Virus record (IMG/VR): IMGVR_UViG_3300042526_000101
Coordinates: 1-22,580 of that record
DNA from: a virus
Length of the DNA: 22,580 nt
Strand: one strand, 5' to 3'
Shown here one piece after another: positions 2-21,817 of the stretch. The translations under genes and the position numbers were made by a program. Below the pieces are notes generated by a model. The model was not told the DNA's origin and ran no database searches. It was given only the letters and a program-made list of their open reading frames with translations. Each line of letters begins with the position of its first letter. Position 1 is the first letter of the stretch.

Positions 2-544
2 TTAAATAGACTCACTCCACACTGGAATAAATCGTCCATCTTCTGTCTTCGTATATGTAAGTATACCGTCTCCCATTCGCCTTGTCAACTCTTGGCTTGT
101 AGGAGTCATGTTGTTTGTTATTAATTTGTCTTTTCTTGGTTGTCCTATATGTATAGTTGCAAGTATAGCACAAATCTCTTTGACCTGATCTTCTGAGTAA
201 TATGCTCTTATTTGAAATCCTGTTTTACCATCAAGGCTTGATCCAACTGGTGGAGGAATGACTCCTCGTTTTATTAATCTTGGCATATACTTTCTATGAC
301 GATTAACTAACTTAGCAGTCTCAGCAATTGTGTATGCTCTTTTTCTATTTCTTCTAAAGTCAGAACGTAGACAGGTTTCTAATCTATCTTTGTTAATATT
401 ATAAACAGTTACCATTCCTGTTGATCTAGAACTGTGATGAAGTCTTACCAGATCTCCATTAAGGAACCATATCTTTTTACCGCCAGAAATTACAGGTTCG
501 CTATTGTATGCTTCGCTCTGAATTTTTCCTTTTGCAGTAACCAT
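2..544 (-). CDS. Winged helix-turn-helix (MerR/excisionase-like) DNA-binding protein
   Basis: A 180-aa protein, complete, ending in TAA at the window edge. Residues about 70-96 read as a helix-turn-helix (AYTIAETAKLVNRHRKYMPR, then LIKRGVIPPP), followed by a basic wing-like stretch to about 120. This matches the layout of MerR/excisionase-type winged helices, where the first helix pair selects DNA and the wing contacts the minor groove. Residues 26-60 (WFLNGDLVRL...) form a separate small beta-rich segment. The ATG at 544 has a strong ribosome binding site (GGAGGG, 4-5 bases upstream), which fixes the start although it overlaps the preceding zinc-ribbon gene by 55 bases. Similar proteins ending in a WSESI-like tail sit near the tail genes of large Streptomyces phages, as far as I recall. 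A regulatory role in late transcription is inference; an excisionase-like or structural DNA-binding role is possible. Confidence 0.75.
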   Translation of the reverse strand: MVTAKGKIQSEAYNSEPVISGGKKIWFLNGDLVRLHHSSRSTGMVTVYNINKDRLETCLRSDFRRNRKRAYTIAETAKLVNRHRKYMPRLIKRGVIPPPVGSSLDGKTGFQIRAYYSEDQVKEICAILATIHIGQPRKDKLITNNMTPTSQELTRRMGDGILTYTKTEDGRFIPVWSESI

Positions 545-1120: not shown

Positions 1121-1138
1121 TTTATTCCTCCTATTAGA

Positions 1139-1564
1139 TTATATCAAAGATTGAGATCCAGAATCAAAGATTCCTAATCCTGCCTTTATTTGCTTTTTAG
1201 ATGATGCTAGTTGTATCTTTACACGTACAGTTGTTGTTCCTTCATTTAAAAAAGAATATGAATGAACTGCCGATGTCCCGTGCCAAAAAAATGCGTTTCC
1301 ATTAAAACTAACAAATACATCATATGCTGGATGAAGATTTTCATCTCCCCAGACTGCTGTAATTATTTCCTCAGTTATGGAGAGGGCACCAGTTGTTCCA
1401 ACTACGGTAGCACCATTTGAGTTATAGATTGGAGACCAGTGTGAGGTTCTGTTTTTATCTTCAGAAATAATTCTATACCTTGTATTATATTTTAAAGTAT
1501 CAAAATCAACTGGTGGCAAAGATGATCTTAGAATCCTTGTTTTTTTAATATTTGCATCAGCCAT
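1139..1564 (-). CDS. Minor tail protein, beta-rich, unknown specific role
   Basis: A 141-aa, beta-strand-rich protein. Residues 20-50 contain RYRIISEDKNRTSHWSPIY, a segment I associate with fibronectin-like phage structural proteins, although no precise family can be named from sequence alone. Residues 70-120 carry alternating hydrophobic strands around ITAVWGDENLHPAYDVFVSF and SYSFLNEGTTTVRVKIQLAS. No enzymatic motif is visible. The start overlaps the stop of the upstream gene by one base (TAATG) without a clear ribosome binding site, so translation is probably coupled to it. Its place between two fibre-like genes points to a distal tail or baseplate component. Confidence 0.6.
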   Translation of the reverse strand: MADANIKKTRILRSSLPPVDFDTLKYNTRYRIISEDKNRTSHWSPIYNSNGATVVGTTGALSITEEIITAVWGDENLHPAYDVFVSFNGNAFFWHGTSAVHSYSFLNEGTTTVRVKIQLASSKKQIKAGLGIFDSGSQSLI

Positions 1565-8178: not shown

Positions 8179-11100
8179 TTAGCCCCTCTGTGTCCTAATT
8201 CTCTGTGAGTCAACTTGTCTAATTTGTGTCATAACAACTCTTGCAATATCCTCTGGATTTGCATCAGATTTAACATTGACGTTTAGATTATAATTATACA
8301 CCTTCTCGCCTTCGTATGATCCACTATTAATAGCCTTCATTTTATCAACGCCATATGAGTCAACAGCATACTTACTCATTACGAACTCTCCAGGGGTAAG
8401 CATTGCTGGAATAATATCAGTTCCTCTTGCTTTTCCACCTACCGCAAAATACTTAGGAGCCATTCCACCAGATGACATATATTTTGGAATGATTCCGCCT
8501 GATGATCTTCCAACCCTGCCCTTAATATTAGATGCTGCTAACTCTGCTGCTTCTTTAGCCTTAAACGATGCTAATGTGCTTGCTTGCTTCATTACTGCAT
8601 TGGATGCTACCAAGGCACGTTCTGCTGCCTTTAATTGTGCTGCAATAGATGCTGCGCCAATTGCTCCGCTTTCTTGTGCTGCAAGAGCACTTGGATTTAC
8701 CTTTGCTGCAAATAATGCTGCAGCATTCATATCTCCTGCTGCTTTGGCAGTTGCATATCCACTTAAAACTGCTGCTTTTGCTGCAGCAGCATCGGCTGCT
8801 TTTTGGGCTGCTTCATCGGCTGCTTTTTGGGCTGCAGCATCTGCTTCTCTCTTTAGTCTTGCTGCTTTTTCTTCTGGAGTTTCTCCGCCAGTATCGGCAA
8901 CGGTAGGAACAAATGCACTTGATTTTGTGGCTGTCGTAGTAGGTATTGTAGCCATTGCAGCAGCAATTTTACCAATAAGGGTCAGCATACTTTCAAGTTC
9001 AAGTTTTGAATTTGTTAATGCTAGTTTATATGCATCAAGTTTAATTTGAACTGAATCCCAGGCTAGTTTTTCATTTTCAATTGCAAGAAGTTTTGCATCT
9101 AAGATTTCTTGATTCTTATCAAGTTCTGCTTGTAACCTATCTAAAGTTGCTTGTGCGTTTGCAAGTTGAGTTGACTTAAGGCCATCAATAATTGTTTCAA
9201 TATCTCTAATTGATAGAAGTTTTGCTTCTCTTAATTCTGTTATGTTATAAACTTGATCTTCTAATGAAAGAATTTGTACTTGCACTGTCTTTCTTTGTTG
9301 TTCAAGTGCATAAGACTGTTGAGAAATTCTAAACTGTTCTGCTTCAATTTGTGCCTTGGTCATACCGCTTGCAGATACTACGTTATCGGTTTCAGCCTTT
9401 CTTGATGCAGCAATAAATTCTCCAGATTTACGGTTTGCTGCTTCTGCTGCAGTTGTACGCATATCATTTGCAAGTTGTGCTGCTGCTGAGATATCACCTT
9501 GAGATAGTGCATCGGCAAGGGAAATTCTACTCTTTTCCTGTGCTGCAATATCAGAGTTAAGTTGAGATATTGTCTGTAGTGCCTTTTCTTGAGCATCATA
9601 CTTCTCGTTAATTGCTTCTGTTGCTTTATCAATTAAAGTTAAGTCATTTGATAATACCGCTGATCTATCAGATAGAACTTGTAATGGTCTATCAAAATTA
9701 ATATCCATGCTGCGCTGGGCATCGTTAATTTTTTCCTGAAGGTCATCAAGGAAGTTTTGACCAATGCCTGGGTCATACTTAAGGGTAAGATTAATTTTAT
9801 CAATTTTATCTTGTTCTTTTTGAATACTATCATTAACAGACTTAACATCAATCTCTGCAGTTTTAATCTTAGCCTTTAATCCAATATTTGCTATATCAAA
9901 TTGGTTTTGTAATGTTCTGGCCTGTAAATCAAGAGCAGAAACATTTGCATCAATTGCTTCTTGTGTCGTTTGCTCAAAGGTTTTTGTTTGATTTGCAATT
10001 AACTCAAGAAGATCAGAATACTGTTTAGTTTTTGCTATTAAATCACCAAATTTATCCTTAGTATTTACAGTTGCATCTGCTGAAGCAATTGCAAAGGCAT
10101 TATTCTTGTCCTTTAATATTTCAAGAATAACTTCATGCTTTACTCCAGCAGCAGTAAGCCTCTTAAATGCCTCAACCTGCATCTTTGTCTCTGAAATATT
10201 ATCACTAAGTTTAATCATACTTAGTTGATAATTAAGATTAATAGTTTTTTGTATTTCTTTGTTTAACTCTGCTTGCTCTTCCTTAGTGGCTTGCAAACCT
10301 CCCTGGGCTGCGATCTTTGCAGTTAGAGTTACGTTCTGTAATATCTTTTGAATTTCAAGTGAGTTATATCCTTCTTTTGTTAATGCTTCATGGGCTGCAA
10401 CTTGATTTTCAATCTCTTTACTTGCATCTTTTACATCTTGAATGTATCCACCAATGGTGGCCTTTCGGAATCCTTCATTAATAACAACAAAGTCTTCTTT
10501 AAGTGCAGTAATGTTTCCTGCCTTATCAACTTCAAATAGTTTTTCTGTCCATAGTGCAAATTGCTCTGCGTCTAAACTTCTAATAATCTCCATGAAGTCT
10601 TTATCAATAAGTATTTCTCCACCATACTTATTTCCTGTTGCTTTTTCTATCTTCTTCAAGGCTTCTGCATTTTTTGCTGCTGCCTCTATTTGCTTAATTG
10701 CTCCATCTTGTTTTTGTAAATAGTCATTTTCTGTTTTTCCTGTATTTCTATTGAGAAACTTTCTTAAAGACTCCATTGGCTTAAGAGCATTAAAAGCACC
10801 TTCTTTAACAAGTTTTAATCTTTGAACAAGATCATCTAAGAAAGATTCATCTCTCTTTGCCTTTTCACCAGCACCTCCTGCTCCGCCAGGAACAACTGCT
10901 CCACTGACAGGTGCGGTTGGGAAAACTTTTGGAATGAGTGAGTCCATTGCAGCCTTCTCTGCTGCAGCCCTGTTCTTTGCATCATTCTTAAACATTTCAC
11001 GATCAATTTTTTCTTGTCTTTGGAACTGTCTTCTTCTTTCGTCAGTTGCAAATACTTGTTGTCCAGCATACTTTGGATTTGCTTTTTCAAATGCAGCATC

Positions 11101-14100
11101 TAATTCTCTATCTAGAATCTTATCAAAACTATCGCTAAACTCAATTTGAGAAACAGTTATAATTGCCTGAAGTTGAACGTTCTTATCAAGTTTACTTATT
11201 TGGTCCCAATACTTAAGTGCAGAATCTAGTGTCAGGTTTTTGCCTACACCACCTGCTTCTTCTTGCATCTTTATAAGAGCCTCAAGCGTAACTTTTCCGT
11301 CAGGGAATTTACCCTTAAGTTTATCAATTTCTTTTCCTCGTGCTTCAAGTGCATCAATATCACTTGCATCTGTTTCAATTTCTAAATCAATGCCAACAAA
11401 TGGTGGGATCTTTCCAAGTTCTTCTATTGAATTAAATACTGCATCTGCTCCAGCCTTATCCATAAGTTCAACTTCAAGAAGAAGTGCTTTTTGATTTTCT
11501 TCACTTTCAATCATTGTTAAGATTGTAGATAGTCTTTGAAGTCCTTCAGTTCCCTGAACATCAATAAAGGCTTCTAGATTCTTTGATATATTTCCACCAG
11601 CCTTAGTCAATGTGTTAAGAAGAGTAGAGGCTTCGTTAGGTGTTAATACATCTGAAGTAACCAGTGTTGAAATTTCAACAGTTACCTGGTCCTTGCCAAG
11701 TTGATCTAGTTGTGATTGAAGTGCAGCAGCCTGAGCCTTTAACGGTGCATTGTCTTTAAACTTATCCTGCATTCCAACTGAAAATGCTTCCATAAATTTA
11801 TCACGAACTTGTCCACGTCCAGAACCAAATGGACTAATCTTTTCAAAAGTTGATGCACCAGATACTTTATCATAACTTGAAGAAACGCTTGCAAGCATTT
11901 TTGCCTGCTCTTGTCTTAAAGTCTTTAGTCCATCTTGTCTTTTTACTTCTAATCCAGCAATTTCTAAATCAATTGCTGCTCTTTCTTTATCTGTTTTTAA
12001 AGTCTTCTTTTTTAATTCAAGATTTGCAATTGATGTATTAAATACTGATGTTAATGCGTCTATACTTCCTTGAGATGCAGAAAGGTTTTGTGAAATAAGT
12101 CCCTGAACTATTCCTGCTGCTTTTCCGATTGCAGCCTTTTCTTTACCCTTTTGCCAATTTCTAATTGCTGCTTCAATACCGCCAAAGATAACTGTGGATA
12201 TTGCTATACCTACTAGGCCAGGAACTGCTCCCACACCAGTTGCACCAACTCCTGCAGATGCTGCCGTACCTGCAAGTCTTGCAGCCTTTGCAGCCTTCAA
12301 TGCTGATTGAATATTTCCACCTGATGTTGCACCACGGGCTACAGAGAAGTCTTGCATCATATTTGCTGCTTGAAGTCCTGCTCTTGCTCCAAGTAAACCT
12401 CCACCAACGCCACCACCGACCAACTGTCCTACTTCTGTTTTTGTGTTTATTCCAACTTGATCTTTTGCAACTTTATTAAGTTTATCAACTGCAGATAATA
12501 TTACCTTTTCTCCAGCAGATAATAGATCAAGTTGTAACTTCAAAGGATTTTCTAAAATGTTTTCTCCATTAGGACCTAGGAGTTGTATTAGTCTACCTCT
12601 TACATTAACTTCAAGCCTTGCATCTTTTAGATTTCTTGTAAGTGCAACTGCAATTGACTCTGCTTGATCTATACCCAATACACCCTGAGTTACTGCTGTT
12701 CCAAGTTGATTAACTAGAGAGTTAACTGCTGCGCCTTCACCAAGAAACTCAAGTGATGACTCAAAGGTAGACTTAAGTTTTTTACCAAAGTCACTACTGT
12801 CTATAAGATTTCTACCAAAATCAATGCTTACTGGAGAAATGTCTGTATTTCTTCCTGCCCTTACTGCTGCTGCAGTTTGAGTTATAGAAACTTTTCCAGT
12901 AATCTTTCCAAGTTCTTCAAGATTTTTAGTAGTCATGCTCATTGACTCTGCTTGCTTTTGTCCTTCAATTACATTTTTTCTAATTGTTGCTGCTTGCATT
13001 TTAAATATAGCGACCAGTCCAACTGCAGTTGCTGCAAGCAATTTAAGTGGACTGTTAAGCATTGGCAATAGCATAGTCAACATAGACAGCATCATTATTA
13101 CATCCATGTTCTTTGCAATACCACTATCTGGATTTTTTTGAGCATACATTCCAGCAGCCATTGGAATCATCATTCCAGCCATTTGTGCTGGCATCATTTT
13201 TTGTGAGAAATTCATTCTATTCATTTGACGCATATTTGTGCGCTCTGATGCAGATGCTGCTCTTGCATTTCCGTCTTCACCCGTAACTGTTTGGGATACA
13301 TTACCATATCCACCAATAAATCCACGGAATCCACGAGTCTTATCTGTTCCAAATGCCTGTGTAGTTTTAGTTACAGTGTTTTCAAGTCGTGCAACAGTTG
13401 GCGTTGTCTTACCCATTTGAGCAGCAAACTTGTCAATTCTGTCTCCAAGTTTTTTAACTCTTGGTTTATCAAAGAATTTATCAATTGCTTTTTCAACTCT
13501 ATCAGGTGATCTTGAAGCAGCAGATGCTTGTCCTCCACCTGCTGGAACTAGTAGTCCAGATGGCGTGTATACCATTCCTGGTGGTGCTTTTGTGCCAGAG
13601 AATGGATTTACGTTAGAGTTTTCATACCCTGGAACTTTATCAGCAACCATTGACTGAATAAGTGGCATGTACTTAGCAGATTGTTTTGCTGGAATTACAG
13701 ATTCTCCTGGAGAAAGCATTGCTGGTTGAATATCTCCAGCACCCTTTGGTCCAGGCACTGAAACAATTCCTTCAGCCAAATTCATGGTTGGCTTAACCTT
13801 CATCATTGCATTATCTGTAAATATAAAGTCATCGTAGTATGATGGCTTACGACTTAATCTATATTCTAGTGCAGCCTGAAGAGCCTTCTTTTCATTTGGT
13901 AGTTTGTCAAATGGTGTCTTCTGTAGATTAGTTAATACTTCTCTTGCTTGGGCAGCATTAAGTGGATGACCACCTTTTACGTTTCCAAACTTTGTTCCTC
14001 TTAAACCAGAGTTAAACCATCCCCAGTCTCTTGCAATCTTGCTTGGTGCCCAGTCTTCTGGTGTACGATTTTGAGATCTGACTTCTCTAATATGACTTGG

Positions 14101-16872
14101 AGTTAACTTATTAACATCCCAACCCTTTAAAGACTTAACAACGTCTTGTCCTAAAACCTTTTCAAGATATAACTTTTCTTCATTTACTAAATAATTTTGT
14201 AACTTTACAAGATGTGGGTTTCTTGATTTTAGAAGGGCTCTAAATCTTTTATCTGCAATGTCTTGATTCTGTTGACTATTTCTTGCATTGCTAAACTTAG
14301 GAAGTCTTGAATAGATTTGGCTAGGAGTAACATCTTTACCTCCATAGCCCTTTCTTTTAATTGTACGGAGTAGTTCTTGCTCTGTAGTATCGGTTCTCTT
14401 ATTAGCAACCATCCAGTCTTCATTTTCTTTAAGTTTTTTCTTAAAGTTATCAAGTTTTCCTGCTGGAATTAAGAATGATTCATCTCCTACTGAGACACGA
14501 ACCTTAGATCCTTCAGCAGAATATCTAATTCCTGAAAGTCTTGAAGAGATTGGAACAACAGGTGCAACATTTCCAGACAAACCTCTACGAGCAGCATCTC
14601 TTGCTGCATATCTAGCCTGCTGTGCTTCACGGAATGCTGCAGGTCCTGCTGATAGTGGAATTCCCTTTCCAACAGTTGCTGCTGCTCCAAATGATGGGAA
14701 TAATCCTCCAGCAAAACCTGGAACCTTATCTTTAATTATTTGACCAATAAAACCTGAATACTTTTGTGACTGCTTTGCTGGAATAACTGCTTCTCCAGGA
14801 GATAGCATGGATGGAACTACATCTCCTGCTCCTCTTGGTCCTGGGACTGAAGTTGTTCCTTCTGCAAACCTTCTTGGCATACCTCCCTTGCCAGGCATAA
14901 ACAATCCTGGATTCTGTCCTGCAAAACCACCCATTGCTGCAGAAGCACCTCTATAAACACTGGTTAAAGATGTTAGTGCTGCTGCTTCTAATTGGTATGC
15001 TGCAGATAGTTGTTGGTGCTTAGAGTAAAGGGCATTGCTAATAGATATATTTTCTAATTCTTCTTGTGATAGATATTGAGTCTTTAATGCTGCATCGCTA
15101 GATCCCGCAGATAATTGCTGGTATCCCTTTCTTAAAACCTGAATTCCCTTTACTGAGTTTGCAACAGCATTTGCAAGCAAACCAAATGTCATTAAGAATA
15201 GTGGTCCAAGCCCACCAACTACAACTGTTATAATTCCAATAGCCTTCTTTATTCCATCTGGAAGACTATTAAATTTATCAGCAATTCTTGATATAAATTC
15301 AATCGCTGGTGTTAATACCTTAGCAAACAACTCGCCAATTGGTGCAATGGCTGCCTTTAGTCTTTCTACAGATCCAACAAACTTATTCATTGGAGAGTCT
15401 GCTTGAACTTTTAATTCTCGCTGACTTAAGATAGCAAGTTCTTCAACAGATGCATTTGTTAATTGAAGAACACGAGCAGCCTGTGTTCCTTCTCTTCCAA
15501 GGTTATTTAGAAGTGCGGAGATTCTTGCAAACTGATACTTTCCAAATACTTTTTCAATTACTCTTGAGCGCTCAAGATCAGTTAGTGGCTGTAGTGCTTG
15601 TGCAAATCCAGTTACAGTATTTCTTAAGTTACCAGCATTTGCTTCAACAATGCCCTTGATATTAATTCCAACTGCTGCTGCAGCCTTTGATGCAGCGTTA
15701 CTTGGATTAATTAAAGATGCAAGTCCTGACTTAAGTGCGTTAGCACCTTGTGCTGCAGAAATTCCACCTTCTTGCATTGCAGCCATAAAGTATGCAAGAT
15801 CTTTTACATCTCCACCTAACTGCTGAATAACTGGTGCAACCTTTGGAATTGCTTCTGTTAAATCGTCAAGTGCAACAACAGTTTGGTTTTCAACTGCGTT
15901 GAGGAAATCAATTGTTCCAGCCATGTCTCCAGTATCAATCTGGAATGCATTCTTAAGTGCAATGGTTGTTTCTAATGCTTTTTCTTGTGTAACTCCACCA
16001 AGTACTGCTAGTTTATTTGTTTGTTCTACAAGTGCTTCTAAACCTTTTCCGCTAAAACCTGCTGCTGCAGCATCAGCAGCCATTTTAATAGTGTCCGAAA
16101 CCTTAAGTCCATACTTTGTGTATTCATCTCCAAGATCACGAATATTTTTCAAAGCAGCAGCGGTGGCACCTTGATCTGTAAAAATATCTCCATAGACTTT
16201 CTTAAACCTAATTACCTGTGTTTCAATTTCTTTAAATGTTTTGATTGCTTGTGAGCCAAATAGCATAAGAGGAATAGTAAAACCAACCATAAGTTGGCGA
16301 CCAGCCCACTGGGTATTCTTACCAAAGTTAAGTAATTTTGTTGAACCATCATCAACTAGTTTATTAAATATTTGTTGGCGTTGAGTGGCTGCCATTAACT
16401 GTGTCGTTACATTTCCATAGTTTAGTGCCTTTGGATTGAACTTCATTGCGTTCATGGCACCCTGTGCATCACGTCCTAACTGGACATATTGCTGCTGTAG
16501 TGTCTTTACACGCTTATCAACTAATTTTCCTATGGTGTCAAATTCGCTACCAAACATCTTTCCAAATGTCTTAGTAGATGCTGCACCATACCTAAAGTAT
16601 TCTTTAAGTGAAAGTTTTTGTTTATCTAGGTTTTTAGCAAACTGCTCAGAAGCAGTGCTCATTCTTGTCATTGAAGCGGTCCACTGACCAGTGGCATTTA
16701 CATTATGTAAAAGAGATTGTGCGTACTTTGACTGTGCTGCTGCTGCAGTCTTTGTTCCAACGATGAGGGAGCGGTTAAGGGTAGTGAGTTCCTTTTCAAG
16801 AAGACGCAGTTGCGTCATTGCTTGTGAGGTGTCAATATTTATAAAAATATTGCTATTTGTATCTCCTGCCAT
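8179..16872 (-). CDS. Tail tape measure protein
   Basis: A 2897-aa protein that sets tail length and, in related phages, is ejected with the DNA. Residues about 225-395 match the phage tail tape measure core (VYGDIFTDQGATAAALKNIR, then a KVAPVIQQLGG and MQEGGISAAQGANALKSG region). Hydrophobic segments lie near 532-570, 1224-1296 and 1537-1570 and could enter the host membrane. Three copies of a linker with a GxxDxxPxMLxPGE core occur near 668-709, 1031-1077 and 2802-2835. Coiled-coil stretches fill about 2320-2640, and an Ala/Lys-rich helix lies at about 2660-2780. The C-terminus (DANPEDIARVVMTQIRQ) is typical of such proteins in large actinobacteriophages, from memory. At roughly 0.15 nm per residue the tail would be about 430 nm long. 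The ATG follows the short chaperone gene by 20 bases and has only a weak AAGG about 10 bases upstream. Confidence 0.95.
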   Translation of the reverse strand: MAGDTNSNIFINIDTSQAMTQLRLLEKELTTLNRSLIVGTKTAAAAQSKYAQSLLHNVNATGQWTASMTRMSTASEQFAKNLDKQKLSLKEYFRYGAASTKTFGKMFGSEFDTIGKLVDKRVKTLQQQYVQLGRDAQGAMNAMKFNPKALNYGNVTTQLMAATQRQQIFNKLVDDGSTKLLNFGKNTQWAGRQLMVGFTIPLMLFGSQAIKTFKEIETQVIRFKKVYGDIFTDQGATAAALKNIRDLGDEYTKYGLKVSDTIKMAADAAAAGFSGKGLEALVEQTNKLAVLGGVTQEKALETTIALKNAFQIDTGDMAGTIDFLNAVENQTVVALDDLTEAIPKVAPVIQQLGGDVKDLAYFMAAMQEGGISAAQGANALKSGLASLINPSNAASKAAAAVGINIKGIVEANAGNLRNTVTGFAQALQPLTDLERSRVIEKVFGKYQFARISALLNNLGREGTQAARVLQLTNASVEELAILSQRELKVQADSPMNKFVGSVERLKAAIAPIGELFAKVLTPAIEFISRIADKFNSLPDGIKKAIGIITVVVGGLGPLFLMTFGLLANAVANSVKGIQVLRKGYQQLSAGSSDAALKTQYLSQEELENISISNALYSKHQQLSAAYQLEAAALTSLTSVYRGASAAMGGFAGQNPGLFMPGKGGMPRRFAEGTTSVPGPRGAGDVVPSMLSPGEAVIPAKQSQKYSGFIGQIIKDKVPGFAGGLFPSFGAAATVGKGIPLSAGPAAFREAQQARYAARDAARRGLSGNVAPVVPISSRLSGIRYSAEGSKVRVSVGDESFLIPAGKLDNFKKKLKENEDWMVANKRTDTTEQELLRTIKRKGYGGKDVTPSQIYSRLPKFSNARNSQQNQDIADKRFRALLKSRNPHLVKLQNYLVNEEKLYLEKVLGQDVVKSLKGWDVNKLTPSHIREVRSQNRTPEDWAPSKIARDWGWFNSGLRGTKFGNVKGGHPLNAAQAREVLTNLQKTPFDKLPNEKKALQAALEYRLSRKPSYYDDFIFTDNAMMKVKPTMNLAEGIVSVPGPKGAGDIQPAMLSPGESVIPAKQSAKYMPLIQSMVADKVPGYENSNVNPFSGTKAPPGMVYTPSGLLVPAGGGQASAASRSPDRVEKAIDKFFDKPRVKKLGDRIDKFAAQMGKTTPTVARLENTVTKTTQAFGTDKTRGFRGFIGGYGNVSQTVTGEDGNARAASASERTNMRQMNRMNFSQKMMPAQMAGMMIPMAAGMYAQKNPDSGIAKNMDVIMMLSMLTMLLPMLNSPLKLLAATAVGLVAIFKMQAATIRKNVIEGQKQAESMSMTTKNLEELGKITGKVSITQTAAAVRAGRNTDISPVSIDFGRNLIDSSDFGKKLKSTFESSLEFLGEGAAVNSLVNQLGTAVTQGVLGIDQAESIAVALTRNLKDARLEVNVRGRLIQLLGPNGENILENPLKLQLDLLSAGEKVILSAVDKLNKVAKDQVGINTKTEVGQLVGGGVGGGLLGARAGLQAANMMQDFSVARGATSGGNIQSALKAAKAARLAGTAASAGVGATGVGAVPGLVGIAISTVIFGGIEAAIRNWQKGKEKAAIGKAAGIVQGLISQNLSASQGSIDALTSVFNTSIANLELKKKTLKTDKERAAIDLEIAGLEVKRQDGLKTLRQEQAKMLASVSSSYDKVSGASTFEKISPFGSGRGQVRDKFMEAFSVGMQDKFKDNAPLKAQAAALQSQLDQLGKDQVTVEISTLVTSDVLTPNEASTLLNTLTKAGGNISKNLEAFIDVQGTEGLQRLSTILTMIESEENQKALLLEVELMDKAGADAVFNSIEELGKIPPFVGIDLEIETDASDIDALEARGKEIDKLKGKFPDGKVTLEALIKMQEEAGGVGKNLTLDSALKYWDQISKLDKNVQLQAIITVSQIEFSDSFDKILDRELDAAFEKANPKYAGQQVFATDERRRQFQRQEKIDREMFKNDAKNRAAAEKAAMDSLIPKVFPTAPVSGAVVPGGAGGAGEKAKRDESFLDDLVQRLKLVKEGAFNALKPMESLRKFLNRNTGKTENDYLQKQDGAIKQIEAAAKNAEALKKIEKATGNKYGGEILIDKDFMEIIRSLDAEQFALWTEKLFEVDKAGNITALKEDFVVINEGFRKATIGGYIQDVKDASKEIENQVAAHEALTKEGYNSLEIQKILQNVTLTAKIAAQGGLQATKEEQAELNKEIQKTINLNYQLSMIKLSDNISETKMQVEAFKRLTAAGVKHEVILEILKDKNNAFAIASADATVNTKDKFGDLIAKTKQYSDLLELIANQTKTFEQTTQEAIDANVSALDLQARTLQNQFDIANIGLKAKIKTAEIDVKSVNDSIQKEQDKIDKINLTLKYDPGIGQNFLDDLQEKINDAQRSMDINFDRPLQVLSDRSAVLSNDLTLIDKATEAINEKYDAQEKALQTISQLNSDIAAQEKSRISLADALSQGDISAAAQLANDMRTTAAEAANRKSGEFIAASRKAETDNVVSASGMTKAQIEAEQFRISQQSYALEQQRKTVQVQILSLEDQVYNITELREAKLLSIRDIETIIDGLKSTQLANAQATLDRLQAELDKNQEILDAKLLAIENEKLAWDSVQIKLDAYKLALTNSKLELESMLTLIGKIAAAMATIPTTTATKSSAFVPTVADTGGETPEEKAARLKREADAAAQKAADEAAQKAADAAAAKAAVLSGYATAKAAGDMNAAALFAAKVNPSALAAQESGAIGAASIAAQLKAAERALVASNAVMKQASTLASFKAKEAAELAASNIKGRVGRSSGGIIPKYMSSGGMAPKYFAVGGKARGTDIIPAMLTPGEFVMSKYAVDSYGVDKMKAINSGSYEGEKVYNYNLNVNVKSDANPEDIARVVMTQIRQVDSQRIRTQRG
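8365..8470 (-). repeat. Third copy of the PGE linker motif in the tape measure gene
   Basis: This encodes GTDIIPAMLTPGEFVMSKYA, the most diverged of three copies of a glycine-rich linker in the tape measure protein. It lies about 60 residues before the C-terminus, just after the Ala-rich helix. The core (G-D-P-ML-PGE-V) is shared with the other two copies, but the flanking GPxGAG part is replaced by a GGKAR segment. Confidence 0.7.
8791..8838 (-). repeat. Two-unit 24-bp tandem repeat in the Ala-rich tract
   Basis: A 21-base unit at 8791-8811 is repeated exactly at 8815-8835, a 24-base period. It encodes AAQKAADE/AAQKAADA in the Ala/Lys-rich helix near the C-terminal end of the tape measure protein. 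Its in-frame period allows length changes without breaking the gene. Confidence 0.85.
13640..13790 (-). repeat. Second copy of the PGE linker module in the tape measure gene
   Basis: This encodes a roughly 50-residue module beginning LAEGIVSVPGPKGAGDIQPA and containing a MLSPGESVIPAKQSAKY core and a DKVPGY end. It is closely similar in protein, and visibly similar in DNA, to the copy at 14745-14870. The two flank a block of about 320 residues with no family I recognise. Confidence 0.85.
14745..14870 (-). repeat. First copy of the PGE linker module in the tape measure gene
   Basis: This encodes FAEGTTSVPGPRGAGDVVPS followed by the MLSPGEAVIPAKQSQKY core. It lies after the N-terminal tape measure core and its hydrophobic segment. 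With the copy at 13640-13790 it brackets an unrelated, more charged domain. Confidence 0.85.
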
Positions 16873-16892: not shown

Positions 16893-17222
16893 TTAAAGTT
16901 CTTCTTGTGCTAAAGCAAGTAAAGCGGTATCTGAAAGATTAATTCCAGACGCTGCCTCAATGATTGAATAAACCGTAGGAAGATCAATTACATCCTCAAG
17001 TTTTTCAATGCTTTCCCCCAACTCTGGCTTATACTGCTCCATAGCGATTGCTACACACTCAATCAAAAGTGTCATAGACTTATCGTTATCATTTTGGACT
17101 GCCCCCAAGCCCTCAAACTTCTTCATAAATTTACGTAAAAGTGAGATCTTGAGAGGTCTTACCTTGATCTTTGTTCCATCAATCAGGGTAATTATTTTTT
17201 CTTCATGTACTGTTGTAGTCAT
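16893..17222 (-). CDS. Short tail assembly chaperone (G-like paralogue)
   Basis: A 109-aa acidic protein directly upstream of the tape measure gene, the usual site of tail assembly chaperones, which coat the tape measure protein and recruit tube subunits. It aligns from the first residue with the N-terminal half of the next gene upstream (17268-17969), sharing ITLIDG, PLKI, a C-x(2)-IAM-x-QYKPE block and DLPT; by eye about 45% of 95 residues are identical. It lacks the GT-type C-terminal extension, so it corresponds to the short G product of lambda-like systems, here from a separate gene. The ATG at 17222 has GAGG five bases upstream. A TGCTATAAT element about 25 bases before the start could give it its own transcript. 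No slippery heptamer or downstream T-like frame was seen. Confidence 0.85.
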   Translation of the reverse strand: MTTTVHEEKIITLIDGTKIKVRPLKISLLRKFMKKFEGLGAVQNDNDKSMTLLIECVAIAMEQYKPELGESIEKLEDVIDLPTVYSIIEAASGINLSDTALLALAQEEL

Positions 17223-17247
17223 AACTTCCTCTCAGTAAGTTACCTCA

Positions 17248-17256
17248 ATTATAGCA
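17248..17256 (-). promoter_or_regulatory. Extended -10 promoter-like element before the short chaperone
   Basis: On the minus strand this reads TGCTATAAT, a full extended -10 consensus, inside the 45-base gap between the two chaperone genes. Predicted transcription would begin near 17241, giving a leader of about 19 bases that still contains the GAGG ribosome binding site. No convincing -35 hexamer lies 17 bases upstream. Confidence 0.6.
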
Positions 17257-17267
17257 TAAACAGCCTA

Positions 17268-17969
17268 TTACATTAGGTTTTCGTAGTCAAGACCCATACC
17301 TATACCAAACCCTACCTTTTGAGCATTTGCCCCTTGTAAAGATAGTACGTCATTACTGTCACTAGTCTGACCACCACTAAATACTCTGGCTTTCATGTCT
17401 TCCCACTCTTTTTGACCTTTGTCTTTATTTGTTTCCCCGTCTAAATCCACACCTTGAATTGCTGCAAGAAATTTCTTTTCTTGATAATCTAAATCTCTAA
17501 TTGATCCAATAGTTGCTACTAGTTCAGGCATTGATAGGTTTGCCTCTAGTTCTTTATAGTCTTTCCATATACCCAGCAAAAATATTTCAGACTCTAACTT
17601 TGCTAAATCTAATTCATCCCAACCGCTACCCATAGTGTCTTGTTTTAGTGCTTGTTCTTTTACTGGCTCATCTACTTCTCCGTTGACACTAATACCGCCA
17701 CCAATATTAATTATTTTATAGATAGTGGGTAGATCAACATTATCTTCAAGGTCTTCAATTGTCTTTGCAATTTCTGGCTTATACTGTTGCATAGCAATTC
17801 TTGCACATTCTGACAAATAAGATATTGATTCAAGATCATTTTTTGATTCTTTAATTAAATGGAATGCTTCCATAAACTCCCTAAGATACTTAATCTTGAG
17901 AGGATAAATTTCTATCGTTTCGCCATCTATTAATGTAATAGTATCTGACTTATATATTCTTGTTGCCAT
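17268..17969 (-). CDS. Long tail assembly chaperone (GT-like, in one continuous frame)
   Basis: A 233-aa protein with two parts. Residues 1-95 are paralogous to the next gene (ITLIDG, PLKI, IAMQQYKPE, DLPT). Residues about 115-190 (ELDLAKLESEIFLLGIWKDY, then LSMPELVATI and EKKFLAAIQGVDLD) resemble the T-type extension of actinophage chaperones as I remember them. In lambda-like phages this long form arises by programmed frameshifting; here it is read in one frame, and no slippery heptamer is evident at the junction (residues 95-115). The start is supported by alignment with the paralogue from residue 1. There is no usable Shine-Dalgarno sequence, and a TGGTAAAAT element ends seven bases before the ATG, so a leaderless message is possible. 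It follows the major tail gene across a terminator. Confidence 0.85.
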   Translation of the reverse strand: MATRIYKSDTITLIDGETIEIYPLKIKYLREFMEAFHLIKESKNDLESISYLSECARIAMQQYKPEIAKTIEDLEDNVDLPTIYKIINIGGGISVNGEVDEPVKEQALKQDTMGSGWDELDLAKLESEIFLLGIWKDYKELEANLSMPELVATIGSIRDLDYQEKKFLAAIQGVDLDGETNKDKGQKEWEDMKARVFSGGQTSDSNDVLSLQGANAQKVGFGIGMGLDYENLM

Positions 17970-17976
17970 CTTATCA

Positions 17977-17985
17977 ATTTTACCA
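17977..17985 (-). promoter_or_regulatory. Extended -10-like element before the long chaperone
   Basis: On the minus strand this reads TGGTAAAAT, one mismatch from the extended -10 consensus. The predicted transcription start is about 17970, one base before the ATG at 17969, which would make the message essentially leaderless. It overlaps the end of the terminator's U-tract region. Single-mismatch AT-rich elements are weaker evidence than the perfect copies elsewhere. Confidence 0.4.
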
Positions 17986-18021
17986 CAAACAAAAAGCCCA
18001 CCCCCAGTTAAGGGAGTGGGC
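17985..18021 (-). terminator. Rho-independent terminator after the major tail gene
   Basis: In the coding direction, a hairpin (stem GCCCAC/GTGGGC, one mismatch, then CCC/GGG, loop TTAACT, at 17996-18021) is followed directly by TTTTTGTTTGT. It lies 16 bases after the stop of the major tail gene. Partial termination here would cut expression of the chaperones and tape measure relative to the tube protein. Confidence 0.85.
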
Positions 18022-18037
18022 CAGTTGTCAGTTTATA

Positions 18038-18676
18038 TTAAATTGAGTTTGATGCCCAAGTACGGTCAACGATCTTACCGTATGATCCAGAAGCGTCTTC
18101 TGGTAGTAGACGGAATGAAACTTCAAACATTGAAGCCTCATCACGCTTTGCTGATACTGTTACATTTTCAATAGACAAAGCACGGTATGCTGTGTAGACA
18201 CGCTCAATGTATGGAGAGTCTGCACAATCACCTGTTCCTGGTCCAACAGCACAGATAGCACGTTCTACTGGACATTCACCGATGTCGCCTGCAGAAAGAT
18301 TTAATGTTCTTCCTGCTGATGTCAACTTGTTTCCAGATAGATCATCTGAGTTGGCTGCCAATGCGAGAAGCAAGTTCTCTAGTGTAGCCTCAGCAAAAGC
18401 AGTTGCAAGGTTAACCTGCATGCCCTGCTTATAAAGTTTAGCAACGTCAAGAATCTGGTCCACCTGGACTTCACCGAAGTCTGGTTGGAACTGCATTTCA
18501 AGACCGTTCATGGTATAACCTACGTTATCGTAAGCAGCGTCATCAGCCAAAGTTTCCTTGTATGATTCACCGTTTACAAAAGCGGCCATTGTACCTGGCG
18601 TTAGGGTTGTATCTGCAACGAAAAGCGCTGCTGCACCAACGATAATGTTGGTCGATGTTCCACGACTATATGCCAT
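18038..18676 (-). CDS. Major tail (tube) protein
   Basis: A 212-aa protein in the position and size range of siphovirus tail tube subunits, which stack as hexameric rings around the tape measure protein. It starts MAYSRGTSTNIIVGAAALFV. Residues 58-75 (LEMQFQPDFGEVQVDQIL) and a C-terminal strand set (ALSIENVTVSAKRDEASMFE, then VSFRLLPE) fit the tube beta-sandwich with its N-terminal beta hairpin. Three cysteines (residues about 134-151) surround a GPGTGD loop that may be surface-exposed. The G+C content is visibly higher than in most neighbours, as in the capsid gene, in line with codon bias for high expression. The ATG has GAGGTG about 5-6 bases upstream. It is flanked by a promoter-like element before and a rho-independent terminator after, so it can be transcribed as its own strong unit. 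Confidence 0.85.
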   Translation of the reverse strand: MAYSRGTSTNIIVGAAALFVADTTLTPGTMAAFVNGESYKETLADDAAYDNVGYTMNGLEMQFQPDFGEVQVDQILDVAKLYKQGMQVNLATAFAEATLENLLLALAANSDDLSGNKLTSAGRTLNLSAGDIGECPVERAICAVGPGTGDCADSPYIERVYTAYRALSIENVTVSAKRDEASMFEVSFRLLPEDASGSYGKIVDRTWASNSI

Positions 18677-18741: not shown

Positions 18742-18750
18742 ATTATAACA
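18742..18750 (-). promoter_or_regulatory. Extended -10 promoter-like element before the major tail gene
   Basis: On the minus strand this reads TGTTATAAT in the 79-base gap after the tail terminator gene. Transcription from about 18735 would give a leader of about 59 bases ending in the GAGGTG ribosome binding site of the major tail gene. No good -35 hexamer is visible upstream. Together with the terminator at 17985-18021 it would make a one-gene unit for the tube protein. Confidence 0.6.
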
Positions 18751-21457: not shown

Positions 21458-21789
21458 TATTTACCGTAATAACTCGCTAATTCTTCAGGTGTCGCAATGC
21501 GGACCTGCTTACGTGTTAGCCATTTTTCTGATGCTTCTTTGGTTACAATATTATAACCTGGGGTTAGTTGGCCAACCTTTACCCAATGTAAACTTTTAGT
21601 TGAATGTATTGCAATCTTTTCACTTGTTTTACTTGGTTCAATAACTTCTTTGTTTGGGTCTGGAATAAAACTGCCTATTGTTTCCAATATCTGCATTTTT
21701 GTTGTTGCCCCATCTAAATTAATATTATTCTTTTTGGCATAGGACTTTAACTCAAAAACTGTTTTTGTAACTAATTCTTCAATTGTCAT
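21457..21789 (-). CDS. Small capsid-linked protein with SAP/Rho-N-like motif
   Basis: A 110-aa protein encoded directly after the major capsid gene. Residues about 3-40 (VFELKSYAKKNNINLDGATT followed by KMQILETI) have the two-helix pattern of SAP, HeH/LEM or Rho N-terminal domains, small nucleic-acid-binding folds often found beside phage capsid genes. The C-terminal half (WVKVGQLTPGYNIVTKEASE, then KWLTRKQVRIATPEELA) looks like a separate small structured piece, perhaps contacting the capsid. Whether it binds DNA, decorates the shell or assists assembly cannot be told from sequence. It has a strong AGGAGG eight bases before the ATG and a TGGTATAAT element about 20 bases before the start, so it may begin a separate transcript. 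Confidence 0.6.
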   Translation of the reverse strand: MTIEELVTKTVFELKSYAKKNNINLDGATTKMQILETIGSFIPDPNKEVIEPSKTSEKIAIHSTKSLHWVKVGQLTPGYNIVTKEASEKWLTRKQVRIATPEELASYYGK

Positions 21790-21808: not shown

Positions 21809-21817
21809 ATTATACCA
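21809..21817 (-). promoter_or_regulatory. Extended -10 promoter-like element after the capsid gene
   Basis: On the minus strand this reads TGGTATAAT, 11 bases downstream of the hairpin that follows the capsid gene. The predicted start near 21802 falls at the edge of the AGGAGG ribosome binding site, giving a very short leader of about 13 bases. The -35 region lies in the hairpin stem and is not recognisable. Confidence 0.55.

Follow-up and report, generated by a model that had tools for sequence, protein, structure and literature searches.

Organization of the tail module

The window, by which we mean the whole stretch of 22,580 nt analysed here, comprises positions 1-22,580 of the virus record IMGVR_UViG_3300042526_000101 (36.5% G+C) and carries a tail module on the minus strand. 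In the order of transcription the module runs from the gene for the major tail protein (MTP) through GT and G2 to the gene for the tape measure protein (TMP), with a gap of 68 nt between MTP and GT and of 20 nt between G2 and TMP. The product of the MTP gene (18038..18676, minus strand), the 5' neighbour of GT, matches phrog_2175 ('protein with Ig domain', 2.1e-32), and the gene in this position in Streptomyces phages is annotated as major tail protein or as protein with Ig domain. The TMP gene (8179..16872, minus strand), the 3' neighbour of G2, encodes 2,897 aa and its product matches PF10145 (PhageMin_Tail, 2e-28); one 1,492-nt stretch of the gene has no near-identical DNA in the phage record collection. 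GT and G2 are thereby placed between the tail tube gene (MTP) and the TMP gene, as are chaperones of the lambda G/GT type. An ORF of 180 aa lies downstream of the tail genes (window 2-544, minus strand) and, judging by eye, we presume that it may contain a MerR/excisionase-like DNA-binding region.

The initial annotation had described two ORFs within 16893-17969 that have a common N-terminal domain of about 95 residues with about 45% identity, and that lie in reversed order, the long one ahead of the short one. All of this is borne out. GT, annotated here as a tail assembly chaperone with G and T in one frame, is an ORF of 233 aa (17268..17969, minus strand) and is transcribed first; G2, a stand-alone second copy of the G domain, is an ORF of 109 aa (16893..17222, minus strand) and follows it. 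Residues 1-97 of GT, the G1 domain (17679..17969, minus strand), are identical to G2 at 46 of 97 positions (47%; E 7e-30 in a two-sequence BLASTP). Both ORFs match phrog_10504 (7e-21 and 1.1e-21), and the C-terminal part of GT matches phrog_10474 (2.8e-14), which is distinct from the N-terminal family; the function of both families is unknown. The T domain of GT comprises residues 110-233 (17271..17642, minus strand), and the approximately 124 residues past the common domain are present only in GT. Read as ORFs, the long and the short form have the N-terminal G domain in common and T is found only in the long one.

Relationship of GT and G2 to tail assembly chaperones

GT and G2 were compared by tblastn with 50,697 phage records. 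Relatives of GT are present in 132 of these (127 Streptomyces and five Rhodococcus) and relatives of G2 in 127, all Streptomyces; many of them are annotated as tail assembly chaperone. The best match of GT to the Streptomyces phage chaperones has an E value of 4e-26. The best match of G2 (3e-18) is an unannotated record, and annotated chaperones reach 8e-18. The alignment of GT is split in two in many of the Streptomyces records listed, because T is in another frame there. The predicted structures of GT and G2 also match 'Tail assembly chaperone' entries of BFVD (5e-4 and 7.7e-7, respectively), and the BFVD matches of the GT model include GT of phage N15 (E 0.011). The proposed membership of the tail chaperone families is thus upheld by the annotated Streptomyces phage proteins and by BFVD, but not by Pfam and NCBIfam, in which no chaperone model scored above the cut-off for either protein. 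One candidate family, PF17388 (mycobacteriophage tail assembly protein), was rejected, as it matched only three of 56 members with a best E value of 0.0091 and unrelated families match more members. A sequence search of solved structures gave a single chance match (E 0.077).

The AlphaFold2 model of GT has a mean pLDDT of 74, with the G1 domain mostly near 90 and T and the tail lower, and that of G2 has a mean pLDDT of 68.5. Unrelated folds of the two N-terminal domains would speak against a duplication; both G domains are predicted with the same order of two strands followed by helices (beta-beta-alpha). When PDB chains were re-aligned to the GT model, the HK97 tail assembly chaperone 2ob9 came first (Z 4.4; unrelated rows tied, Z 3.7), with an rmsd of 4.8 over 84 residues. 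A Foldseek search of the PDB with the GT model returned nothing at E <= 0.001, and 2ob9 is absent from the structural match list of the G2 model. The structural matches to known chaperones are weak; they agree with a chaperone fold, without proving that fold.

Distribution of the fused and frameshift architectures

Six scans of viral contigs yielded 444 loci which, with 16 named phage regions and the window, make 461; two further loci that are again the window were set aside. The architecture of each locus was called by running G and T profiles on its three forward frames. The loci are the best 80 per scan and not a random sample. Three scans were queried with the fused type and four of the six began from fused or mixed queries, which leaves the proportions with little meaning; that mixed forms are absent is still informative. 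Both architectures were returned by three of the six scans. Among these best-80-per-scan loci, 327 have the fused gene together with G2, 113 have T in the -1 frame and no G2, and 15 are ended by the contig edge. The remainder are four loci with no detected upstream G (two truncated and two from Rhodococcus) and two truncated loci with no T.

The 310 distinct G-to-T sequences, window included, divide into 205 with the fused gene and G2, 94 with a single G and T in the -1 frame, and 11 at a contig edge. None of the 310 is a mixed form, again among the best 80 per scan. Wherever the contig gave room, a fused gene is accompanied by G2 (205/205). No -1-frame gene with a second G was detected with the G profile, which misses very diverged G sequences (it missed both of those from Rhodococcus). 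The fused form and the frameshift form alternate exactly. The initial annotation had read the locus as duplication in place of frameshifting, with the duplication supplying both chaperone forms, and this reading is supported by the sequences surveyed, with no exceptions. A pattern scan of genome contigs for relatives, carried out as a host search, gave 115 pattern matches and no relative.

The fused sequences all come from metagenome-derived viral contigs, and an assembly or sequencing artefact could in principle have joined G to T by a false base or duplicated a repeat. With 205 distinct sequences, drawn from many samples, showing a fused G-T followed by a second G, neither chance nor a local assembly error can be the cause. 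The two copies are, moreover, diverged and reciprocally monophyletic, and are accompanied by conserved regulatory elements. The independent fused sequences rule this explanation out, and we give it practically no chance.

Slippery sequences

The 16 named phage regions comprise 14 from Streptomyces phages and two from Rhodococcus phages. All 14 Streptomyces isolates have one G only, with T in its -1 frame; in the two Rhodococcus regions G was not detected by the G profile. A joined frameshift product is annotated for TunaTartare and for Rhodococcus phage NiceHouse. TunaTartare is the only one of the 14 Streptomyces records with a joined feature, and the other 13 (L163, L164, L167-L173 and L175-L178) list T as a separate gene, for example Gilson gp39, an ORF of 30 codons. 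The frameshift is probably under-annotated in those records.

The shift in the -1-frame loci sits in the overlap of G and T. There is an in-frame slippery heptamer in 84 of 95 such loci (CCCAAAC, 31; GGGAAAC, 31; CCCAAAT, 18; CCCAAAA, 3; and AAATTTG, 1), and in the first set of 56 loci the heptamers are 31-67 nt ahead of the G stop. Of the 11 loci without a heptamer, the seven from named phages belong to the Boydwoodruffvirinae and four are IMG/VR records. The G/T overlaps of these loci (L164, L168, L170, L171, L172, L175, L178, L187, L188, L189 and L191) have no XXXYYYZ and many of them carry CCCGGAA instead; going by these motifs, the Boydwoodruffvirinae may have an unusual slippery site.

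In the fused loci the slippery site has been lost. An in-frame XXXYYYZ is present at 18 of 183 fused junctions (10%), compared with 21% of windows taken as controls from other parts of these genes, and none of the 18 is CCCAAAN or GGGAAAC. The heptamers are rarer than in the controls and there is thus no slippery-site signal, in agreement with the original claim that the G/T junction lacks a slippery heptamer. A long form encoded by way of a frameshift, which is one mark of the lambda type, is not found here: G and T are in one frame in 205/205 sequences including the window. Relatives with a conserved slippery site would count against a replacement of frameshifting, but a slippery site is found only in relatives without a second G, which supports the replacement idea.

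Recoding might nevertheless persist in a hidden form, for example as slippage that truncates GT to the G form, with G2 as merely an extra copy. The 18 junction heptamers are what could be cited for this. They are unconserved, below the level of the controls, and different from the conserved CCCAAAN and GGGAAAC seen in frameshift phages. In G2, heptamers are present within the final 75 nt in only 16/183 loci, where a -1 shift adds a median of -2 residues. A hidden slippery site in either gene was rejected because heptamers are below the control level, and we regard hidden recoding as extremely improbable.

Putative promoters and translation start sites

There is a predicted intrinsic terminator in the gap between MTP and GT in the window (17995..18022, minus strand), with an 11-pair stem and a T-rich tail. 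It is followed by an extended -10 element, TGGTAAAAT (17977..17985, minus strand), 7 nt ahead of the GT start codon, which is predicted to be the promoter of a leaderless or nearly leaderless mRNA. Upstream of G2 is a consensus extended -10, TGCTATAAT (17248..17256, minus strand), 25 nt ahead of the start and predicted to be the promoter of G2 (and TMP), together with a strong Shine-Dalgarno, GAGAGGAAG (17225..17233, minus strand), read from the sequence. The Shine-Dalgarno duplex energy in the window is -9.7 kcal/mol for G2 and -1.1 kcal/mol for the GT start.

This signature is conserved. A perfect extended -10, TGNTATAAT, is found upstream of G2 in 203 of 204 fused loci, most often 23-29 nt ahead of the start (about 0.9/183 expected from shuffles), and TGNTANNNT is found 5-9 nt ahead of the GT start codon in 191 of 204. 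The GT -10 hexamers are mostly off-consensus (TAGAAT, 59; TAAAAT, 43; TATACT, 38; others), with the consensus TATAAT in 18 of 183 loci and no -10 in ten. The GT -10 is exactly 9 nt from the start in 48/181, which would leave a leader of 1-3 nt. The Shine-Dalgarno is stronger at G2 than at GT in 204/204 fused loci, with median energies of -10.2 and -1.1 kcal/mol, respectively. Among 61 representatives, the G2 -10 is present in 60, the GT -10 in 54, and the G2 Shine-Dalgarno is stronger by more than 3 kcal/mol in all 61. Of 183 fused loci, 154 have a terminator-like hairpin in the MTP/GT gap, where shuffled sequences predict 0.2; among frameshift loci the proportion is 34 of 81. No terminator was found between GT and G2 (0/183), and none of the 173 fused loci inspected for it has a -10 of this kind at the TMP start.

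The G genes of the frameshift type are laid out like G2, with a median Shine-Dalgarno energy of -9.3 kcal/mol and a -10 mostly 22-33 nt upstream, and none of 82 has a -10 at 5-9 nt ahead of its start. The GT layout is therefore derived. The promoter argument is built solely on the extended -10 and its conserved position: a sigma-70 two-hexamer scan shows no excess (18 against 22.7 expected), and TGNTATAAT in the window alone shows a mild one (5 against 1.77 expected). The start codon was considered as a discriminator of leaderless genes and discarded, as GT has 192 ATG and one GTG among 193 and G2 has 181 ATG and two GTG among 183. Further TGNTATAAT elements are located upstream of other structural genes in the window (21809-21817, 18742-18750 and 1138-1146, minus strand), and the starts at 21789 and 1120, which lie behind such elements, have a strong Shine-Dalgarno (-10.2). 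The positions of these elements suggest several short transcription units in the tail module.

A -10 element ends about 7 nt ahead of the transcript start, so a GT -10 at 5-9 nt from the start codon would put the start of the GT message at, or within about 3 bases of, the start codon. We infer that the elements act as promoters and terminator and that the GT mRNA would be leaderless. In the passages of a mycobacterial study that deal with start sites, leaderless and leadered genes are told apart by a mutually exclusive -10 or Shine-Dalgarno upstream of the start, and leaderless initiation in M. smegmatis is as efficient as leadered initiation (PMC4633059). A leaderless message need not be weak. 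The predicted excess of G would therefore have to stem from the strength of the promoters, from the additional promoter or from imperfect spacing, mainly from the first two, and not from the lack of a leader as such.

An alternative is that the same two genes are expressed on one late transcript, GT-G2-TMP, and that the ratio comes from the strength of the translation starts alone. The Shine-Dalgarno contrast is complete by itself (204/204) and no terminator separates GT from G2 in 183 loci; additionally, the part of the report on phage 0305phi8-36 that concerns its chaperones proposes that GT is low there for want of a ribosome binding site (PMC2147016). However, the terminator ahead of GT (154/183) would cut a shared transcript, GT would need internal translation without a Shine-Dalgarno, and a single transcript leaves the perfect TGNTATAAT, which stands at a constant position ahead of G2 (203/204), without a role. 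We consider a single transcript unlikely, and favour initiation from separate promoters.

Phylogeny of the G, T and MTP sequences

The tree of the T domain (116 representatives, 124 columns) is weakly resolved and has two architecture changes, compared with a mean of 38.6 after shuffling. The fused rows are nested among the frameshift rows. One fused row (L205) was set apart in the free tree, and the tree improves by 30.3 log units over the free one when all fused rows are held in a single clade. The MTP tree likewise has two architecture changes. By the nesting of the fused clade among frameshift phages, frameshifting is the older state, with one switch as the simplest account, and on these trees we favour a single switch from the frameshift to the fused form.

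The tree of the G domains has 102 rows, built from 34 of about 61 fused representatives and 34 frameshift loci, picked partly at random. G2 forms one clade (SH-aLRT 99.8) and G1 forms one clade with a value of 90, which is not conclusive. There is no sign in this tree of conversion between the tandem copies. Twelve single-G rows of sister frameshift phages group with G2. Holding the single-G rows together gives a tree that is 18.3 log units better (p-AU 0.74), which does not settle the branch order of G1.

When both forms are read from one frameshifted gene, their G parts are bound to be identical, and separation into two genes removes this tie. After the switch G1 changed faster than G2: mean pairwise identity among 58 representatives is 0.52 for G1, 0.675 for G2 and 0.683 for T, and G2 is more alike than G1 in 96% of pairs. 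The copies also differ at residues 27-28 (G2 numbering), which are K-Y in G1 (55 and 55 of 61) and S-L in G2 (59 and 61 of 61). These residues are a candidate site of copy-specific binding, as judged from the alignment.

The divergence of G1 and G2 into separate clades without conversion, and the consistent difference at residues 27-28, could also mean that G2 has taken on another job and is no longer the bulk chaperone, with GT alone acting in assembly. In that case it is hard to account for G2 being the slower-changing copy, the one whose place in the tree is with the single-G rows from sister frameshift phages and whose promoter and Shine-Dalgarno layout is that of a frameshift-type G. G2 is also retained in every fused locus whose contig reaches far enough (205/205). 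Another job for G2 is, in our judgement, very unlikely; the data point instead to G2 as the bulk G.

Discussion

Xu et al., in 2004, reportedly found that G/GT chaperones made by a -1 frameshift are conserved in long-tailed phages. According to the portion of a later account that concerns lambda, the long form of the lambda-type pair is made by -1 programmed frameshifting, as in many long-tailed phages, and G and GT are made at 30:1, a balance that is required (PMC5009743). The genes described here resemble lambda G/GT in consisting of a short G and a long GT with a common N-terminal domain, and in their location, with the tail tube gene on one side and the tape measure gene on the other. They differ in that there are two genes, T is fused in frame, there is no slippery site, the long form comes before the short one and the two have separate start arrangements. 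GT and G2 are homologous in sequence to the annotated tail assembly chaperones of the Stanwilliamsviridae. Taken together, the data make it probable that a siphovirus-type tail module here has its G/GT chaperone pair in the form of two genes, GT and G2, with the ratio set by initiation instead of recoding.

In the ancestor there would have been a single G gene with T behind it in the -1 frame. Duplication of G would then have given two copies, one being joined to T in frame to give GT and the other being left alone as G2, with loss of the slippery site. In the present module the terminator would end transcription coming from the MTP gene, and GT would be started from its own weak, off-consensus promoter on a leaderless or nearly leaderless message that continues through G2. 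G2 and TMP would get additional message from the consensus extended -10 promoter, G2 having a strong Shine-Dalgarno. With this additional strong promoter G2 should exceed GT, as G does in lambda. G2 would be the bulk G that coats TMP, and GT the link between TMP and the tail tube protein. We infer that the two genes yield both proteins, with more G than GT, and that these work like lambda G and GT. There is about an even chance that the whole arrangement arose in one switch, that is, by tandem duplication with fusion in frame, a terminator as insulation, a leaderless promoter for scarce GT, and a consensus promoter and Shine-Dalgarno for abundant G2, and that the G domain of GT then diverged (sub-specialized) for a docking role of its own and became fixed across a large clade.

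A two-gene G/GT without a frameshift is already in print for Bacillus thuringiensis phage 0305phi8-36, in which the paralogous gp143 and gp144 correspond to G and GT and a low level of gp144 is inferred from the lack of a recognizable ribosome binding site, as set out where the report treats this pair (Hardies et al. 2007, PMC2147016). Compared by description, the two systems are alike in having two paralogous genes without a frameshift and a long form with a poor ribosome binding site. In the same passages the phage is of a Bacillus lineage, no frameshift ancestor is shown, promoters are not described, gp143 is ahead of gp144 and the pair is separated from the tape measure gene by one other gene (PMC2147016). 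Here, in contrast, the fusion comes first, the pair adjoins TMP, there is a frameshift sister group and a paired promoter signature, and the arrangement is seen in 205 sequences. Microbacterium cluster EA phages are described as having two separately expressed ORFs, in a passage that mentions neither a common N-terminal domain nor an in-frame fusion (PMC7302621). Among 3,679 SEA-PHAGES genomes, 342 are described as carrying two chaperone genes but no joined one (PMC10885494). A search of open-licence papers found no duplicated-and-fused chaperone in actinophages, and no frameshift sister group, reversed order or promoter-based control. What is new here is the regulatory signature, with a conserved putative promoter and a start arrangement particular to each of the two copies.

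The nearest cultured relatives of both domains are in the Stanwilliamsviridae (Streptomyces) and Trinavirus (Rhodococcus), which have the same gene neighbourhood. In their frameshift chaperones, by contrast, G is single and T lies in the -1 frame. Uncultured phages of a large group appear to use two genes where their closest relatives use one frameshifted gene. Few recoding events in phages are as conserved as the frameshifting of tail chaperones, which raises the question of why it persists. Because the frameshift and duplicated lineages are sisters with the same neighbourhood, it can be asked directly what the frameshift buys; candidate benefits are a fixed ratio, identical G domains and compactness. 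For annotators, the finding is a warning that two chaperone genes need not mean a missed frameshift. As for the phages themselves, the fused clade suggests that promoters and start sites can take over the setting of the ratio, and in this clade the now separate G domain of GT evolves at a higher rate.
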